Source: Paraburkholderia sabiae
Lineage (GTDB): Bacteria; Pseudomonadota; Gammaproteobacteria; Burkholderiales; Burkholderiaceae
Assembly: GCF_030412785.1 (NCBI RefSeq)
Contig: NZ_CP125296.1
Coordinates: 496,001 to 560,000, forward strand
DNA length: 64,000 nt
Direction of reading: 5' to 3'
The notes beneath the pieces were generated by a model that saw only the letters and a program-made list of their open reading frames with translations, was not told the origin of the DNA and ran no database searches. Positions 20,225 to 51,544 of this stretch are shown one piece after another. Position numbers and translations under genes: made by a program. Position 1 is the stretch's first letter. Each line of letters opens with the position of its first letter.

Positions 20225-20559
20225 GTACCGTCGATCAGTCATCGATCACCCTGCGGGATGCCGTTGCTTATATCGAAGCGAATTTCGATAAGGCTGTGAG
20301 TCTTGCTCAGCTGGCAGAGATTTCTGCGCTCAGTGTTTCGCGGTTTGCTACTGTGTTTAGACAGCAGGTTGGGCTTTCGCCTTATAAGTATTTGTGTGGA
20401 GTTCGGGTTAGACGTGCTCAGACTTTGCTGTTAGCCGGTGTGCCCGGGGCTGTTGTTGCTGCTGAGGTTGGGTTTTTTGATCAGAGCCATCTGGCTCGGC
20501 ATTTTAAGAGGTTTTGTGGGGTGACGCCCAGCAGTTTCTTGCAGAAGGCTAAAGGGTAG
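20221..20559 (+). CDS. stand-alone AraC-type HTH regulator
   Basis: A 112-residue protein that is almost only the AraC DNA-binding domain. HTH1 is VSLAQLAEISALSVSRFATVF and HTH2 is VAAEVGFFDQSHLARHFKR, ending with the signature GVTPSSFLQ. It has no effector domain; full-length AraC proteins have about 300 residues. Its start overlaps the oxidase stop by four bases, so it is made as the last gene of the operon and probably regulates it. Codon use shifts strongly toward T-ending codons (GCT, TTT, GTT) compared with the rest of the operon, which may mark recent sequence drift next to the repeat that follows. Confidence 0.85.
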   Translation: MSTVDQSSITLRDAVAYIEANFDKAVSLAQLAEISALSVSRFATVFRQQVGLSPYKYLCGVRVRRAQTLLLAGVPGAVVAAEVGFFDQSHLARHFKRFCGVTPSSFLQKAKG

Positions 20560-20566
20560 CGTTTTT

Positions 20567-21094
20567 GCTGGCATCCGCGATTTCTTTTTGGTCTGCTAGC
20601 GTCGCCCCTGTGCGGGGCGGCACCTACTTTTCTTTGCAGCGGCAAAGAAAAGTAGGCAAAAGAAAGCCGCTTTTGAACCTCCGGTGCCCGCCAGGATGGC
20701 GCTGTGGCATGCCGCAGTCGAGTTGTCGCGCAGCGACGTCCGCACTCTGTAGAAAGCCCGCAGTCAACCGCGCACGACGCGAAAAGCCCCCACACAGTCT
20801 GGAGCACATACCGCCGCAATCAACTGACGGTAAATAAAAAACGTGCTGACCGAATGTGCTCCAGGTGGATGTCATTTTTCGCGCCGCGCGCGCCTGACTG
20901 TGGGCTTTCTACGGAGTGTTTGCGTCGCTGCGCGACGGCTCAAAGAACGTGCGCCGTGCCGTTATCGTGGCAGGCACCGGAGGTTTGAAGCGGCTTTCTT
21001 TTGCCTACTTTTCTTTGCCGCTGCAAAGAAAAGTAGGTGCCGCCCCGCACAGGGGCAACGCATGAAGTACAGATACGAAATCGCGGATGCCAGC
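20567..21094. repeat. long imperfect inverted repeat (arms about 240 bp)
   Basis: The sequence reading inward from 20567 (GCTGGCATCCGCGATTTC) returns in reverse complement ending at 21094. Matched blocks include CCCCTGTGCGGGGCGGCACC with TACTTTTCTTTGCAGCGGCA, then AAAGAAAGCCGCTT, the CCTCCGGTGCC block, TCGCGCAGCGACG, TAGAAAGCCC and CTGGAGCAC (20799-20807 with 20856-20864). The unpaired centre is about 48 bases around 20831. Each arm also contains a small internal hairpin, CTTTTCTTTGC-AGCG-GCAAAGAAAAG. I recall similar TTTCTTTGC/GCAAAGAAA blocks as dispersed repeats in this genus, but cannot verify that here. No ORF or transposase lies inside. Confidence 0.85.
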
Positions 21095-44205: not shown

Positions 44206-46368
44206 ATGGCTCTCGACAGGTTCGACGCATGGTGGAGCGGGCTCCGTTACGTGCGGCGCAGCGTGGTGCTGCGGCTGCTCGGGACGGTGCTCGCCTTCAG
44301 CTGCGCGATCACGCTGATCCTGACCGCGGTGCAGCTCTTCCGCGACTACGAACGCGGCTTCGAGCAGATCCAGAACCGTCTCGTCGATATCGACCGCAGC
44401 TATCGCGACAGTCTCGGCGAAGCGCTGTGGCGGCTCGATCAGCCGCAACTCAAACTCGAACTCGAAGGCATGCTGCGGCTGCGCGATATCCGCGCCGCGG
44501 AAGTGCGCGAGGTGCCACCCGTCAGTTCATCGATGGTGGTGAGCGTGGGCGAACGCGAGCACATGTCCGGCATGCGAGTCGCGCGCGAGTTCCCCATCAT
44601 GTACCACGTGCAGGACAGGGTCGAGCAGATCGGGACGCTGTATGTCGAAGCGACGCTCGCCAATCTCTTTCACGACCTCACGCGCACGGCGCTCGTGATT
44701 CTCGTGAGCCAGGGCGCGAATACCTTTCTCGTCGCGCTGTTCACGTTTTACATTCTGTCGCGGCTCGTCACGCGGCATCTCGCGGCGATTGCGCGTAGCG
44801 TCAGCGATTACGACTTCCACGAGCCGCCTTCAGCATTCGTGCTGCAGCGCAAGCCGCCGCGCGAACCCGATGAACTCGATCGCGTGGTGTCGGCAATCAA
44901 CGCAATGGGAATGCGCTTGCATCGCGCGTATCTCGACGAACGCGAAGCTGCCGTCGAGCGCGAAGCGCGGCACATGGCAGAAGCGGCCAATCGCGCGAAG
45001 GGCGAATTCCTCGCGAACCTGAGCCACGAATTGCGCACGCCGCTGAACGGCATTCTCGGCTATGCGCAGATTCTCGGACGCGACGACACGCTGAGTCTGC
45101 GTCAGCGCGACGGCGTCGCCGTGATCCAGCAAAGCGGCGAGCATCTGCTGACGCTGATCGACGAGACGCTCGATTTCGCGAAGGTCGAAGCGGGCAAACT
45201 GCGCATCGAGATCTGCGACGTGCCGCTGGAGGGACTCGTCGATACGATCCGCGAGATCATCGGCGTGAAGGCCGAGCAGCGGCATCTTGCGTTCGAATGC
45301 AGCGTCGCCGCCGATGCGCCCTGCGGCGTGCGTGCCGACGAACACCGCTTGCGCCAGGTGCTGCTGAATCTGCTGTCGAACGCGGTGAAGTTCACCGATG
45401 GCGGCGGCGTACGTCTGCTCATCGCGCGCGGCGAAAGCGGTGCGGTCCGTTTCGAGGTGCACGACACGGGCATCGGCATTCCCGCCGAGTATCACGAGCA
45501 GATCTTCATGCCGTTCGAACAGGCGGGCGGCGCGGAACGGCGCGCGGGCGGCACAGGGCTCGGGCTCGCGATCAGCCGCCAGTTCGTGCGCGCAATGGGC
45601 GGCGAGGTGAAAGTAGAAAGCGAAGTCGGGCGCGGCAGCGTGTTCTGGTTCGAACTGCCGCCCGCGCTCGTCGAACCGTGCGTGTCGCACGTCACAAGCG
45701 CGGCTGCGATCATCACGGGCTACGAAGGCCCGCGCCGCAAGGTGCTCGTGATCGACGACGTGCAGATCAACCGCGCGGTCATCATCGAACTGTTGACGCG
45801 GATCGGCTTCACCACAACGGAAGCGGCGGGCGGCGTGGACGGCATCGCGATCGCGCAGGCGGAAAGCCCCGATCTGATTCTCACGGACATCGTGATGCCC
45901 GGCATCGACGGTCTCGACGTGACGCGCCGTTTGCGCGCGATGCCGCCGTTCGCGCGCACGCCCATCATCGCCATTTCCGCGTCGCCGTTCGGCGTGGACG
46001 GCGCGAAGAGTCTGGAAGCGGGCGCGAATGCGTTCATCACCAAGCCCGTCGATTTCGACGTGCTGCTGGCGCGCATCGGCGAATTGCTCGATATCGAATG
46101 GATTCGTGCGGCCGTGCAGCGGGATGCCGCGCTGGACACGCCCGCGGCCTGTCCGGCCAGCATGCCCGCCGACGCAATGAGCGAACTGCACCGCCTCGCG
46201 CGCGACGGCAATATGAGCGGCATCGTGCAATGGGCGGAGCGGATTGCGGCCAGCGATCCGCCGCATGCCGCGTTCGCCGCGCGGCTGCATCAGCTGGCGC
46301 GCGCGTATCAGTCGAAGGCGATACTGCAACTGGTCGAGCGGTATCTCGAAGGGAACACGGCGTCATGA
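44206..46368 (+). CDS. hybrid sensor histidine kinase with C-terminal receiver
   Basis: A 720-residue membrane sensor. TM1 is at about 21-42, a periplasmic sensor domain spans 43-160, and TM2 is at about 161-186. Then come a HAMP-like linker, HisKA with phospho-acceptor His274 (NLSHELRTPLNG), and HATPase with LLNLLSNAVKF, DTGIGI and GGTGLGLAI. A receiver domain follows with Asp561 (LILTDIVMPG) and the Lys of ITKPVD. The last 90 residues are a helical extension seen in some Burkholderia hybrid kinases. Its stop overlaps the next kinase gene by four bases. The chain of coupled genes implies a phosphorelay. Confidence 0.9.
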   Translation: MALDRFDAWWSGLRYVRRSVVLRLLGTVLAFSCAITLILTAVQLFRDYERGFEQIQNRLVDIDRSYRDSLGEALWRLDQPQLKLELEGMLRLRDIRAAEVREVPPVSSSMVVSVGEREHMSGMRVAREFPIMYHVQDRVEQIGTLYVEATLANLFHDLTRTALVILVSQGANTFLVALFTFYILSRLVTRHLAAIARSVSDYDFHEPPSAFVLQRKPPREPDELDRVVSAINAMGMRLHRAYLDEREAAVEREARHMAEAANRAKGEFLANLSHELRTPLNGILGYAQILGRDDTLSLRQRDGVAVIQQSGEHLLTLIDETLDFAKVEAGKLRIEICDVPLEGLVDTIREIIGVKAEQRHLAFECSVAADAPCGVRADEHRLRQVLLNLLSNAVKFTDGGGVRLLIARGESGAVRFEVHDTGIGIPAEYHEQIFMPFEQAGGAERRAGGTGLGLAISRQFVRAMGGEVKVESEVGRGSVFWFELPPALVEPCVSHVTSAAAIITGYEGPRRKVLVIDDVQINRAVIIELLTRIGFTTTEAAGGVDGIAIAQAESPDLILTDIVMPGIDGLDVTRRLRAMPPFARTPIIAISASPFGVDGAKSLEAGANAFITKPVDFDVLLARIGELLDIEWIRAAVQRDAALDTPAACPASMPADAMSELHRLARDGNMSGIVQWAERIAASDPPHAAFAARLHQLARAYQSKAILQLVERYLEGNTAS

Positions 46369-47990
46369 GCCATCTCGCCGCTTCCGCCGCGCAAACGGGG
46401 ACGATCCTGATCGTCGACGATACGCCCGCCAATCTCGGCGTCGTGGTCGACAGTCTGGAGGCGCGCGGCATCCGCGTGCTGGTCGCGCTCGACGGCCTCG
46501 AGGCGCTCGAACGTGCCGCGTTTGCGCAGCCCGATCTGATTCTGCTCGACGTGAAAATGCCGGGCATCGACGGCTTCGAGACCTGTCGGCGCCTCAAACG
46601 TGACGAGCGCACGCGCGAGATCGCCGTGATCTTCATGACCTCGCTGACGGGCAACGAAGATCGTGTCGAAGGATTCGCGGCGGGCGGCGTCGATTACGTG
46701 ACGAAGCCGCTGCGTGTCGACGAGATGCTCGCGCGCGTCGGTGTGCATCTCGAACTGCGCGCGATGCACACGCAACTCGTCGCGCAGAACCGGCAACTGC
46801 TCGCGGAAGTGGCCGTGCGCAAGGAAACGGAAGCGGCGCTCAAGCAGGCGCGCGACGATCTCGAACGGCGCGTCGCGCTGCGCACGGAAGAACTGGCGCG
46901 CGCGAATGCGAATCTGCAGGCGCAAATCGACGAACGCCGTCGTGCCGACGCGCGCTTGCAGGCGAGCGAAGCGCGTTTTCGCGCAATCGTCGAAACGAGT
47001 CCGGTGCCGTTGTGCATCACGTCGATGCCGGACGGGCGCATCCTCTACACGAACGAGCCGCTGCGCGCGCTGTTCGGCATGAATGCGGGCGTGGCTGCGA
47101 ACATCGCTGATTTCTACGCAGACCCGCTGGAGCGCGAACGGCTGATCGATCATCTGCGAACGGAGGGCAGTCTGCGCGACACGGAAGTGCGATTCCAGCG
47201 TCCCGACGGCACGCGCTTCTGGGCGATGGCGACGGCGCGCGTTGCGACTTACGACGATTCCCCCGCGATCTACGTCGGCATGAACGACATCACGGGACGC
47301 AAGCAGATGGAACAGGAACTGGTCGAGTCGCGCGAACAGCAGCGCGAGCTGTCCGCGTACATGGAAGCGATCCGCGAAGAGGAGAGAAAGCGCATCGCGA
47401 TGGAGATTCACGACGAACTCGGCCAGTTGCTGACGGCGCTCAAGATGGACGTGTCGCTCCTGAAGATGCGCCTCGCACACGACGCGGAAGCGACCAAGAA
47501 GGCCGACGACATGCGCGAACTCGTCGAAGGCACGATCTGGATGGTACGCAACGTGGCGAGCCATTTGCGGCCGGCGGCGCTCAACTTCGGCATCGTTTCG
47601 GCGCTGGAATGGCTCGTCGACGAATTCAACCGGCGCAACGCGATTCCCTGCGAACTGCGCATCGAGGGCGGCGAGCCCGTGCTGTCGGATGCGCACGCGA
47701 CGGCCGTGTTCCGTATCGTGCAGGCGTCGTTGACGAATGTGGCGCGGCATGCGAAGGCGAAGCGTGTCGATGTGTCGCTCGTGTCGACGGCGGACAGGCT
47801 CGAACTGCGCGTGCGCGACGATGGCCGGGGCTTCGACCGCGAGGCGGCGCGCCGCGAGTATTCGTACGGCCTGCTCGGCATGTATGAACGCGCGCGGCTG
47901 ATCGGCGCGACGCTTTCGATCGACAGCGCGCCGGGTGCAGGCACCACGGTTTCGATTCACATTCCGCTCGATGGCAGCCCTAAAACATGA
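46365..47990 (+). CDS. cytosolic REC-PAS-HisKA_3 hybrid kinase
   Basis: A 541-residue soluble protein. An N-terminal receiver has Asp62 (LILLDVKMPGIDG), followed by a coiled coil (about 140-200), a PAS domain (about 202-315), and a HisKA_3 dimerisation domain with His349 (RIAMEIHDELGQLL). The HATPase domain ends with DGRGFD and GLLGMYERARL. There is no membrane segment. Receiver-first architecture suits input from the membrane hybrid kinase encoded upstream, with output to the NarL-type regulator downstream. Both junctions are four-base overlaps. Confidence 0.9.
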   Translation: MSHLAASAAQTGTILIVDDTPANLGVVVDSLEARGIRVLVALDGLEALERAAFAQPDLILLDVKMPGIDGFETCRRLKRDERTREIAVIFMTSLTGNEDRVEGFAAGGVDYVTKPLRVDEMLARVGVHLELRAMHTQLVAQNRQLLAEVAVRKETEAALKQARDDLERRVALRTEELARANANLQAQIDERRRADARLQASEARFRAIVETSPVPLCITSMPDGRILYTNEPLRALFGMNAGVAANIADFYADPLERERLIDHLRTEGSLRDTEVRFQRPDGTRFWAMATARVATYDDSPAIYVGMNDITGRKQMEQELVESREQQRELSAYMEAIREEERKRIAMEIHDELGQLLTALKMDVSLLKMRLAHDAEATKKADDMRELVEGTIWMVRNVASHLRPAALNFGIVSALEWLVDEFNRRNAIPCELRIEGGEPVLSDAHATAVFRIVQASLTNVARHAKAKRVDVSLVSTADRLELRVRDDGRGFDREAARREYSYGLLGMYERARLIGATLSIDSAPGAGTTVSIHIPLDGSPKT

Positions 47991-48619
47991 TCAGAATACT
48001 CATTGCCGACGACCACGCGATCGTCCGCGGCGGACTCAAGCAGATCATCGCGACGACGAGCGACATGATCGTTGCGGCGGAAGCGGCGCAAGGCTCGGAA
48101 GTCGTCGACAAACTGCGTAGCTGCGCCGTCGATCTTCTTCTGCTCGACATGACGATGCCGGGCATTAGCGGCGTCGATCTGATTCGCCGCGTGCGCGCCG
48201 AACAGCCCGCGTTGCCCGTGCTGGTGCTGAGCATCCACGACGAGGCGCAGGTCGCATCGCGTGCGCTGCGCGCGGGCGCGACGGGTTATCTGACGAAAGA
48301 CAGCGATCCCGACGTGCTGCTCGCGGCGATCCGAAAGCTCGCGGACGGCGGGCGTTTCATCGATCCGAAGCTGGTCGATGCGATGGTCTTCGAGACGCAT
48401 CGCGGCGACATGCCGCCGCATGAAGTGCTGTCCGACCGCGAATTTCAGGTGTTGCAGATGCTCGCGGCAGGCAGGAGCATCAACGAAATCGCCGACATCT
48501 GCGCGCTCAGTGCGAAGACGATCAGCACACACAAGATGCGGCTGATGCAGAAGCTCGGCCTTTCCAACAATGCCGAAGTGATCCGCTACGCGATCCGTCA
48601 TGGACTGATCGTCGAGTAG
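47987..48619 (+). CDS. NarL/FixJ-type response regulator
   Basis: A 210-residue regulator. The receiver has Asp54 (LLLLDMTMPGISG) and the Lys of GYLTKDSDP. The LuxR-type HTH is at about 145-205 (LSDREFQVLQMLAAGRSINEIADI...KTISTHKMRLMQKL). It is the DNA-binding output of the two-kinase system; HisKA_3 kinases typically pair with this regulator type. UspA, phasin and small stress genes on either side are plausible targets. Confidence 0.92.
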   Translation: MIRILIADDHAIVRGGLKQIIATTSDMIVAAEAAQGSEVVDKLRSCAVDLLLLDMTMPGISGVDLIRRVRAEQPALPVLVLSIHDEAQVASRALRAGATGYLTKDSDPDVLLAAIRKLADGGRFIDPKLVDAMVFETHRGDMPPHEVLSDREFQVLQMLAAGRSINEIADICALSAKTISTHKMRLMQKLGLSNNAEVIRYAIRHGLIVE

Positions 48620-49775: not shown

Positions 49776-49961
49776 ATGGATATGGATCATGTACAGACGC
49801 TGTTTCAGTCGGCGCACGAAACCGCAAAAACCATCGTGAAGGCGCGCGGGTGGCGCGACAGGACGAATCCTTCGCTATACGACCGCATTTTCTATGCGCT
49901 GCTGGCCAATCATCTGGATGAAGCCGAAGCGGAGCACGACGAGTGGGATCAGGACGACTGA
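49776..49961 (+). CDS. small acidic hypothetical protein
   Basis: About 61 residues from ATG 49776 (MDMDHVQTLFQSAHETAKTI), ending in an acidic tail HLDEAEAEHDEWDQDD. It is mostly helical with no recognised family. An upstream ATG at 49692 would add 28 residues with little coding character; neither start has a clear ribosome site. Whether it is expressed is uncertain. Confidence 0.4.
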   Translation: MDMDHVQTLFQSAHETAKTIVKARGWRDRTNPSLYDRIFYALLANHLDEAEAEHDEWDQDD

Positions 49962-49992
49962 CGTCACCGTGTAATCCACTATGTTTTAATGC

Positions 49993-50013
49993 ATCACAAC
50001 ATGATATAAAATG
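49993..50013 (+). promoter_or_regulatory. ATCACAACATGA element, copy 1
   Basis: ATCACAACATGATATAAAATG lies just upstream of the structured leader of the DUF1840 gene. TATAAA within it (50005-50010) may serve as a -10 box. The 12-mer ATCACAACATGA recurs exactly at 51210. Confidence 0.5.
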
Positions 50014-50020
50014 AAGGTGT

Positions 50021-50138
50021 GCCTTCGGGCGGCTGCAGCATGATCGGGACTGCGCCAAGTCCAACACCTCCGTGAACGAAAGCGCGTAGTCCCTGGGGAC
50101 GCAACCGCTACGAAGGCCCTGAATTCACTACAGGGGAG
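50021..50138 (+). promoter_or_regulatory. structured 5' leader that can sequester the ribosome site (candidate RNA switch)
   Basis: P1 pairs GCCTTCG (50021-50027) with CGAAGGC (50111-50117), extended by GCGG/CCGC (50029-50032 with 50105-50108) and TGC/GCA. Inside it, P2 pairs GGGACT (50046-50051) with AGTCCC (50088-50093) and GCGC with GCGC (50052-50055 with 50082-50085), with a two-base bulge. A third hairpin, CCCTG/CAGGG (50117-50121 with 50131-50135), covers part of the AGGGGAG ribosome site. P1 and the third hairpin share base 50117, so they can compete. No known riboswitch class was recognised. Confidence 0.5.
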
Positions 50139-50143
50139 CTGTC

Positions 50144-50458
50144 TTGCTCGTCACCTTCCAGTCACCGGCCACGCCGGACGTCATCATGCTCCGCGACCTC
50201 GCGCAATATATGCTGGGGTTGATCGGCAAGCGGCTCGACAATCAGGGCGTCATCGCGCACGACGATTTGCCCGAAGCTATCCGTCGTCTGGAAGCAGCCA
50301 TCGTCGACGACAAACAGACGGCCGCTGCGCACGAAGCATCGACGGCGTCGAATACCGGACATCATCAGCATGCGGGCTTTTCACAGCGCGCATGGCCTTT
50401 CCTCGACATGCTCCGCGAAGCACGCAGGCAAAACGCGGATATTCTTTGGGGACTCTAG
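50144..50458 (+). CDS. DUF1840 family protein
   Basis: A 104-residue protein. The start MLVTFQSPATPDVIMLRDLA and the order of conserved helices match DUF1840, a small beta- and gammaproteobacterial family of unknown function; the C-terminus WPFLDMLREARRQNADILWG is the family's most conserved part. Translation starts at TTG 50144 with AGGGGAG five bases upstream. A variable His-rich linker (NTGHHQHAGF) lies in the middle. The gene is preceded by a structured leader. Confidence 0.8.
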   Translation: MLVTFQSPATPDVIMLRDLAQYMLGLIGKRLDNQGVIAHDDLPEAIRRLEAAIVDDKQTAAAHEASTASNTGHHQHAGFSQRAWPFLDMLREARRQNADILWGL

Positions 50459-50493
50459 GTTCGCGCGTGATTTTGTGCGCGAAATCCGGCCGT

Positions 50494-50940
50494 TCACGGA
50501 ACGGTGTCGGGCGAAACTTCGAAGAGAATGCCGCAACCTACACGGTCTAGCAGTTGAGCATGGCGCTCGCCTGTCCACCAGCGCGCGAAAGGCCCGAGAT
50601 GATGATGCCCGATGACGATCAGATCAGCGCGCAATCTGTCGGCCATCGTCGCAATGCGATCTACGGGATCGCCCACGCAGAAATGTCCCGTCGCGGTGAT
50701 GCCGCACGCGGATAGCCGCTCGATACCATCGTTCAATACTTCGCGTGCCGCCTGTTCGTCGATGTCGAATGCCATCGACGAGAGCACGTCGTAGCCGCTC
50801 GACCACCACGACGAATCGACCACGGAAAGCAGATGCGTTTCCGCATCGAGTTGCTGCGCAAGCGATGCGCCGCAACGCAACGCGCGACGGCCTTCTGACG
50901 TGCCGTCATAGCAGAGCAGAATGCGTTTGAAGGGAATCAC
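50494..50940 (-). CDS. universal stress protein, UspA family
   Basis: A 148-residue UspA-like protein (ILLCYDGTSEGRRALRCGAS at the start; LIVIGHHHLGPFARWWTGERHAQLLDR near the end). The ATP loop is altered: GHHH replaces GHRG and the terminal Gly-Ser is missing, so nucleotide binding is doubtful. GTG 50940 is the start. It lies 32 bases downstream of the small membrane protein gene on the same strand, probably one transcript. Confidence 0.85.
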   Translation of the reverse strand: MIPFKRILLCYDGTSEGRRALRCGASLAQQLDAETHLLSVVDSSWWSSGYDVLSSMAFDIDEQAAREVLNDGIERLSACGITATGHFCVGDPVDRIATMADRLRADLIVIGHHHLGPFARWWTGERHAQLLDRVGCGILFEVSPDTVP

Positions 50941-51158: not shown

Positions 51159-51544
51159 GATGTCGTCTCCCTGGTAGGACATCTGTTGCGTCCGTCGATT
51201 CGATTATATATCACAACATGACGTAAATGCGCGATACGGATCATCGTGCATCAACGTGTTGACGCAGAAAAATGCGTCGGTTGAGGAAGCGTTTTCGCTA
51301 ACCCGACCGGTCGGTCGCTGTTGCATCTGTCCCAACATGTAGCAAATGCCTGCGACAACCCAGGGTAACTACTGACGTAAGACTGCGTAAAAATTGTCAA
51401 ATGATGTGTTTAGAATGGCGGTTCTAAATGGTGCTTCGCACAACAACGCGTTGCTAGCGAACACCCATGCTATTCGCATCACACAGTGCGGCCCCGCTGT
51501 GCGTATGCAATAAGCTAATTAGTAAGACTAACGGAGTCGCGTCA
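51159..51544. promoter_or_regulatory. divergent control region of the small membrane/UspA operon and the phasin gene
   Basis: This 386-bp gap has no gene. It holds ATCACAACATGACGTAAATG (51210-51229), a perfect CCGACCGGTCGG palindrome (51303-51314) like TetR-family operators, and a third CAACATG-N4-AAATG copy (51329-51348). CACA-GT-GCGG / CCGC-TGTG near 51480-51500 may form a leader hairpin before phasin. Confidence 0.55.

Follow-up and report, generated by a model that had tools for sequence, protein, structure and literature searches.

A putative promoter-linked structured mRNA leader upstream of DUF1840 genes in Paraburkholderia

RppH and RNase E depend on single-stranded 5' ends, and secondary structure at the 5' end stabilises mRNA (accessible text of PMC3997798). 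Stabilisation of messengers linked to stress is widely reported, as stated in the available part of PMC7509114. The 5' stabilising stem-loops of the E. coli ompA and papA messengers resemble the leader described here in that a helix stands at the very 5' end, which in our case is inferred from the -10 box, and this likeness holds whatever the distance to the start codon (PMC3997798, accessible text). As far as the same text describes them, the ompA and papA structures are stem-loops, whereas the leader analysed here is a multi-helix domain of about 130 nt that is kept by covariation and whose stabilising role is putative. Translational riboswitches are similar in having a promoter-proximal multi-helix domain followed by hairpins that cover the Shine-Dalgarno (SD) sequence, here in two clades. 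They differ in that no clade-wide binding core is seen here, that the domain is found in one genus so far and that its coupling to the SD is not general. RNA thermometers also hide the ribosome site, but the predicted opening in this leader has no useful temperature response. Burkholderia sRNAs of Rfam such as Bcj11 (RF02835) and Bp1_684 (RF02421) are likewise structured RNAs of related bacteria, and none of them matches the element in the window or at 26 element-bearing loci.

The window, by which we mean the whole stretch of 64,000 nt that was analysed, comes from Paraburkholderia sabiae (contig NZ_CP125296.1, positions 496,001 to 560,000). A first-pass annotation, made from the letters of the window, had proposed a structured leader with a hidden ribosome site in front of a DUF1840 gene and a candidate new riboswitch or RNA thermometer. 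A full-text search, in texts covered in part, gave no functional paper on DUF1840 and one mention, in a paper on fish-pathogen prophages. The element is not described in the titles and abstract starts of the literature on riboswitches and structured RNAs of Paraburkholderia and Burkholderia, a literature whose subscription papers are mostly uncovered, and the parts covered of PMC4603805, PMC5688073, PMC9104464 and PMC6127331 hold nothing on DUF1840 or the leader. By analogy with B. cenocepacia, a link to the low-oxygen (lxa) regulon would be only a lead.

Fold of the leader in the window

The features of the locus are collected in Table 1. P1, P2 and both small hairpins are all part of the minimum free energy (MFE) fold of 50010-50160 (RNAfold), and the pairs of P1, P2 and CCCUG/CAGGG recur in the centroid fold. 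The folding energy of this segment is -64.7 kcal/mol (z -3.19), and one of 200 shuffles folds as well; P1 and P2 reappear when the ribosome site is left out (z -2.76; matched by 3 of 200 shuffles). Extending the segment by 57 nt of coding sequence lets a competing long-range pairing open P1 in the MFE of the window leader, which is not seen with 30 nt. The small GAGC/GCUC hairpin covers the final part of the SD together with the third base of the TTG codon, and is not formed as such in the related leader L008. We take the ACCUCC in the apical loop to be similar to the 16S anti-SD sequence.

Table 1. Positions of the leader features and the downstream gene in the window
Feature	Position	Strand	Details
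Palindromic promoter/operator ATCACAACATGATATAAAAT	49993..50012	+	-10 box TAAAAT at 50007-50012
Structured leader element, shortened 99-nt copy	50020..50118	+	R2 match end to end; RNAfold
P1 5' arm, GCCUUCG + GGCGG + UGC	50021..50036	+	partner 50101-50117
P1 3' arm, GCA + CCGCU + CGAAGGC	50101..50117	+	partner 50021-50036
P1 outer segment	50021-50027 with 50111-50117		GCCUUCG with CGAAGGC, 7 bp
P1 middle segment	50028-50032 with 50105-50109		GGCGG with CCGCU, 5 bp including one G-U
P1 inner segment	50034-50036 with 50101-50103		UGC with GCA, 3 bp
P2 5' arm GGGACUGCGC	50046..50055	+	contiguous 10 bp with 50084-50093
ACCUCC in apical loop	50066..50071	+	identical in 6/6 window-clade leaders (alignment A3)
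P2 3' arm GCGUAGUCCC	50084..50093	+	contiguous 10 bp with 50046-50055
SD-covering hairpin	50117..50135	+	CCCUG 50117-50121 / CAGGG 50131-50135; MFE fold
Shine-Dalgarno GGGGAG	50133..50138	+	5 nt before TTG start
Second small hairpin	50136..50149	+	GAGC 50136-50139 / GCUC 50146-50149; MFE fold and six-sequence consensus
DUF1840 gene, 104 aa, TTG start	50144..50458	+	PF08895, 105.8 bits (cut-off 25), E 1.8e-30

Much of the architecture proposed by the first-pass annotation was recovered, namely the 10-bp P2 and the terminal hairpin over the ribosome site, each at its proposed place and in both the MFE and the centroid, as well as the TTG start and the DUF1840 gene. P1, proposed as 7+4+3 bp, has the location and the outer and inner segments given for it, and its middle segment is one pair longer, with a G-U. 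The proposal that only P1 or the terminal hairpin can be complete at a time stands in so far as base 50117 is common to both; here, the price of the overlap is a single pair, and the family as a whole does not follow this arrangement. The unpaired strand GGGGACGCAA, which had been taken for a conserved core, is absent in three of the six closest relatives, where its position is held by AUCAAGGCAA (L006), AUCAGGGCAA (L007) and AUCGGAGCAA (L008).

Conservation and distribution of the element

Leaders with the element were sorted into groups A (the window clade), B, Bx, C and D, and the rest are without it. The full element consists of P1, P2 and a junction with the hairpins P3 and P4. Between the ends of P1 it measures 127-133 nt in 32 of 33 extracted leaders, a set from which L015 and L081 were left out as no P1 was found in them; the window copy measures 99 nt and is without P3, the missing 31 nt coinciding with the P3 hairpin of its closest relatives. 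Wider model matches include an element of 134 nt in L205 and a decayed one of 159 nt in L189 (=L050, G131:C1:6256880-6257038), in which a unit of the P3 loop, TTACGAGGATGAAA, is repeated.

Judged from the aligned leaders, it is the shape rather than the letters that is kept across related bacteria. When 16 group B leaders were aligned by sequence alone, nine of 41 pairs showed double compensatory changes, as against 1-2 in slid controls, a level of double changes that none of 500 shuffles reached, and 96.9% of cells were paired compared with 34-47% with the partner slid. G-U pairs are common in P1 of this alignment, which points to RNA and not to a DNA inverted repeat. For P1 across all groups, we used 27 leaders (alignment A5), that is, the 33 elements minus the near-copies L012, L017, L018, L051, L040 and L084. 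Here, 89.6% of cells are paired (24-54% slid) and both sides have changed in 37 cells compared with 16.0 in shuffles and 4-8 when slid; six of the 15 pairs carry a double change, a count not above that of shuffles (255 of 500). An alignment of 24 leaders to the model (A6), which is fitted to structure and holds only leaders matched by the model R1 described below, gave double changes in 25 of 41 pairs compared with 6-11 in slid controls; the window, L005, L008, L089, L066, L069 and L080, with no R1 match at E <= 1, are not part of it. Among the six leaders of the window clade, double changes affect three of 31 pairs, of which two belong to P2 and one to P1. The remaining P1 pairs are nearly invariant there and so little informative, and one P2 pair cannot form in two of the sequences. 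L196 and L207 build their outer helix from different letters, with the pairing judged by eye. A lack of compensatory changes in P1 and P2 among leaders of orthologous genes had been named in advance as evidence against a structured leader, and such changes are found in both helices.

The interior and the loops are poorly conserved between clades, and no unpaired core common to all clades was seen in the 27-leader alignment. Subgroups do have loop motifs of their own; many B-type copies, for example, show UACARnnAUGAU in P3 when inspected by eye. The group B P3 loop UACAAGGAUG presumably resembles the CsrA/RsmA SELEX consensus; a CsrA/RsmA site in P3 was considered and rejected, as the GGA is missing in six of 16 group B leaders (L010, L011, L016, L020, L031 and L040) and in L022 and L068 as well. 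A leader peptide was also rejected as a reading of this region, since the alignments carry gaps of 1-2 nt.

A protein search found DUF1840 in all 144 genomes of the genus, and Caballeronia and Trinickia appear as neighbours of Paraburkholderia. Upstream DNA was examined for 30 loci of this search, for 38 further places chosen from its list and for 80 named genome-scan loci, minus duplicates and core-type leaders. The core DUF1840 paralogues L083 (G000:C1), L074, L087 and L088 have a different conserved upstream stretch, TTTTAGCAGGTGCTAATATG, at a distance of over 100 nt from the start codon. Covariance searches with leader-built models, as suggested by the first-pass annotation, found relatives of the leader in the genus. 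R1, trained on group B only and thus on no member of the window clade, matched two of the six window-clade leaders end to end (L006, E 0.016; L007, E 0.048; 117 kb) and, at E <= 1, none of the other four, the window included; one further R1 match, in L153, lies far from the leader and was set aside as chance. R2, a model that includes L006 and L007, matched all six, L005, L089 and L008 among them, and aligned to the window element with 22 bits (E 0.0047 in 154 kb). When the complete genome of the window was searched with R2, no matches were listed and the window copy was not recovered either, so that R2 is not to be trusted for shortened copies in whole genomes, and the membership of the window rests on the smaller search, orthology, the similarity of P1 (window GCCUUCGGGCGGCUG, L031 GCCUUCUGGUGGCUG) and the promoter. 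With R2, we found 38 places in 29 of the 144 genomes of the genus. Among 398 genomes of the family, taken from a larger group, R2 matched nine genomes of the genus and gave two weak matches elsewhere, L197 and L198 in two other genera, which lie in coding-like DNA with no palindrome (by eye) and which we attribute to chance; the search of these 398 genomes gave no credible copy in any other genus.

The Rfam search of the window leader gave nothing at the gathering score and, at E up to 10, only a snoRNA (E 1.5), and no match to the element was obtained at 30 loci, 26 of them element-bearing; two sub-threshold matches to Bcj11 lie outside the element. The element looks like a new, lineage-limited structured mRNA leader. 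Elsewhere in the window, Bp1_684 matches at 20543-20633 on the minus strand, exactly at the gathering score. In a DUF1840 protein tree of 105 columns, many of whose forks are unresolved, the window clade forms one group with good support (99/96) apart from B-D, and 23 rows without the element form a weak group (84/57) next to B-D. On these sequences, the tree fits an old element that was lost several times, or one that was gained more than once.

Promoter register and downstream genes

The promoter that had been proposed in front of the leader can be described as a palindrome of the form ATCAC-NNN-RTGAT, which overlaps the region just before the -10 box TAAAAT and lies directly upstream of the leader; a scan for the sigma-70 consensus detected no promoter at this place. 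Of 44 copies of the element, 42 have the palindrome immediately in front of them. With the -10 hexamer picked by script and several of the 44 rows being near-copies, the spacing from the hexamer to P1 is exactly 7 nt in 38 of 44 cases, the exceptions being L184 (4 nt), L089 (6), L189 (9), L206 (9), L195 (11) and L199 (16). The spacing between element and start codon, in contrast, ranges from 21 to 205 nt. As the 7-nt register is fixed while this spacing is variable, the constant is the 5' end of the RNA and not the ribosome site. Judging by the position of the hexamer, the transcription start very probably coincides with the first base of P1 or lies no more than one or two bases away.

The strict palindrome pattern matches the 9.9-Mb genome of the window at this site only, and relaxing the pattern brings in two distant places with three mismatches. 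Within the window, a second copy with two mismatches, ATCACAACATGACGTAAA, is found at 51210-51227, about 240 nt before a phasin ORF at 51467. Several leaders (L009, L019, L026, L032 and others) have a further promoter-like sequence, ATTATATTTCAATRTGATATAAA, upstream of the DUF1840 promoter, and in several loci without the element ATTATATTTCAATRTGATATAAA stands behind a conserved ACCGGGGAAACCCTGGCAACGCGAATACA. The stretch 45297-48619, which lies about 1.4 kb before the DUF1840 leader, holds an 897-aa ORF with matches to a receiver domain of response regulators, to PAS, to HisKA_3 and to a histidine-kinase ATPase, followed by a LuxR-type response regulator; here lies a candidate regulator of the palindromic promoter.

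The gene behind the element was checked by tblastn at 37 of the 38 places, and the 38th is that of L006 from the protein search. A full-length DUF1840 match follows 29 of the 38 copies and a partial or broken one follows two (L178, L184). The other seven are without DUF1840 behind them. In L187, L194 and L195, the element precedes a 55-aa ORF with no Pfam match and a hydrophobic-looking N-terminus, and in L205 an amino-acid permease (PF13520), so that the element is found before three gene families. The remaining three are L189 and L199 (=L048), whose -10 region is altered, and L192, which has no palindrome. Conversely, 38 leaders of the same paralogue group are without the element, which indicates that it is dispensable.

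Possible roles of the leader

The ribosome site of the window leader is predicted to be hidden, with the 5-nt SD core 8% unpaired, and the SD is predicted to be 8-21% unpaired in all six window-clade leaders, compared with a median of 33% in the 38 leaders without the element, four of which are at 21% or lower. The letters of CCCUG and GGGGAG are kept in all six, the loop between them differs, and the CCCUG/CAGGG stem forms in each when the last 42 nt are folded; since this hairpin never varies by double change, covariation is no test of it. With the 5' part shuffled by dinucleotides, the SD is masked equally well in 12 of 60 cases for the window and in 19 (L005), 5 (L089), 11 (L006), 16 (L007) and 12 (L008) of 60 for its relatives, with 3 each for group C. 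On these models, the masking in the window alone is not exceptional and could be within reach of chance. In the four group C leaders, the SD is 1% unpaired through a hairpin whose anti-SD strand has five bases in common with the 3' strand of P1, compared with one base in the window clade, and the leaders of groups B, Bx and D show an SD opening of 2-62%.

An RNA thermometer, in which heat melts the hairpin over the ribosome site, would suit the base-paired SD near the start codon. We regard it as very improbable, as the modelled opening of the SD rises only from 0.000 at 15 °C to 0.005 at 37 °C, 0.014 at 42 °C and 0.059 at 52 °C, and as 51-205 nt separate the end of the element from the start codon in groups B, Bx and D. 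That same distance speaks against the proposed alternation of P1 and the SD hairpin as a mechanism of the family, which we reject for most members; blocking P1 in silico raises SD exposure in three of the six window-clade leaders and lowers it in the other three. A riboswitch, in which the P1-P4 domain binds a small molecule and alters translation of the gene behind it, would be in line with the covariation expected of a conserved structured leader domain, the typical aptamer size of the junction domain and its presence before three different gene families, and the five-base overlap in group C suits a translational switch. However, no clade-wide unpaired core of the kind expected for a ligand was seen in the 27 leaders, no credible copy was found beyond the genus among the 398 family genomes, SD exposure moves by at most 0.1 when P1 is blocked in silico in 19 of the 23 leaders of groups B, Bx and D, and in the model the SD of group C is masked with or without P1. 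We therefore consider a riboswitch unlikely.

The predominance of DUF1840 behind the element might point to autogenous control, with DUF1840 or another protein binding its own leader and adjusting translation. In this case, the leader would be expected only before the gene of the binding protein, yet the seven copies without DUF1840 include those before the 55-aa ORF and the permease. The predicted structure of DUF1840 is of low confidence (mean pLDDT 60.3) and gives no functional hint either way, and we hold autogenous control to be quite improbable. Even more doubtful, in our view, is a trans-acting sRNA that is cut or terminated from the leader and to which the ORF is secondary. In its favour are the start of the element at the promoter, a length of about 130 nt and the persistence of copies in L199, L189 and L192 with no DUF1840 behind them, but no terminator-like site was found on the plus strand of 49900-50520, the loops differ between clades, and the altered -10 regions of L199 and L189 and the missing palindrome of L192 are what would be expected of decaying leftovers if the gene matters.

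We propose, with middling confidence and on comparative grounds, that the element may be a 5'-terminal structured leader that acts in cis on mRNA stability and translation. A function at the 5' end is ranked first given the constant position of the element at the RNA 5' end and the mechanism described in the accessible text of PMC3997798. The palindromic promoter and the structured leader would be inherited as one lineage-specific cassette and the messenger would begin inside the P1 helix, whose base-paired 5' end could deny RppH and RNase E a single-stranded end and thereby stabilise the messenger. In the window clade, P1 would be stacked on the hairpin that hides the ribosome site, and this hairpin might keep translation of DUF1840 low as long as it is not opened by ribosomes, a protein or a ligand. 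Several points sit uneasily with this proposal. Among them are the dispensability of the element in the paralogue group, an SD masking in the window that chance could produce, the shuffle-level count of P1 pairs with a double change, the four window-clade leaders unmatched by R1 and the opening of P1 in the MFE with 57 nt of coding sequence. The stabilising and the translation-masking roles also act in opposite directions, and a short 5' hairpin suffices for a stabiliser, so that a conserved junction fold of about 130 nt seems excessive for the job. We further speculate, as a rather unlikely extension, that the cassette represents a new class of portable regulatory RNA. Its flush 5'-terminal multi-helix domain would respond to a signal in the cell and adjust both decay and translation of a small set of Paraburkholderia genes that may be stress-linked (DUF1840, the 55-aa ORF and the permease), the interior sensor perhaps having been replaced in the window clade.

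Taken together, a putative structured RNA family with good covariation support and unmatched by Rfam 15 was found from raw sequence, and it gives a handle on the control of the DUF1840 paralogues. With its interior turning over rapidly while the outer helix stays constant, the family is a good case for the study of RNA structural evolution, and the fixed register from promoter to first helix offers a clean test of flush 5' helices as built-in messenger stabilisers.
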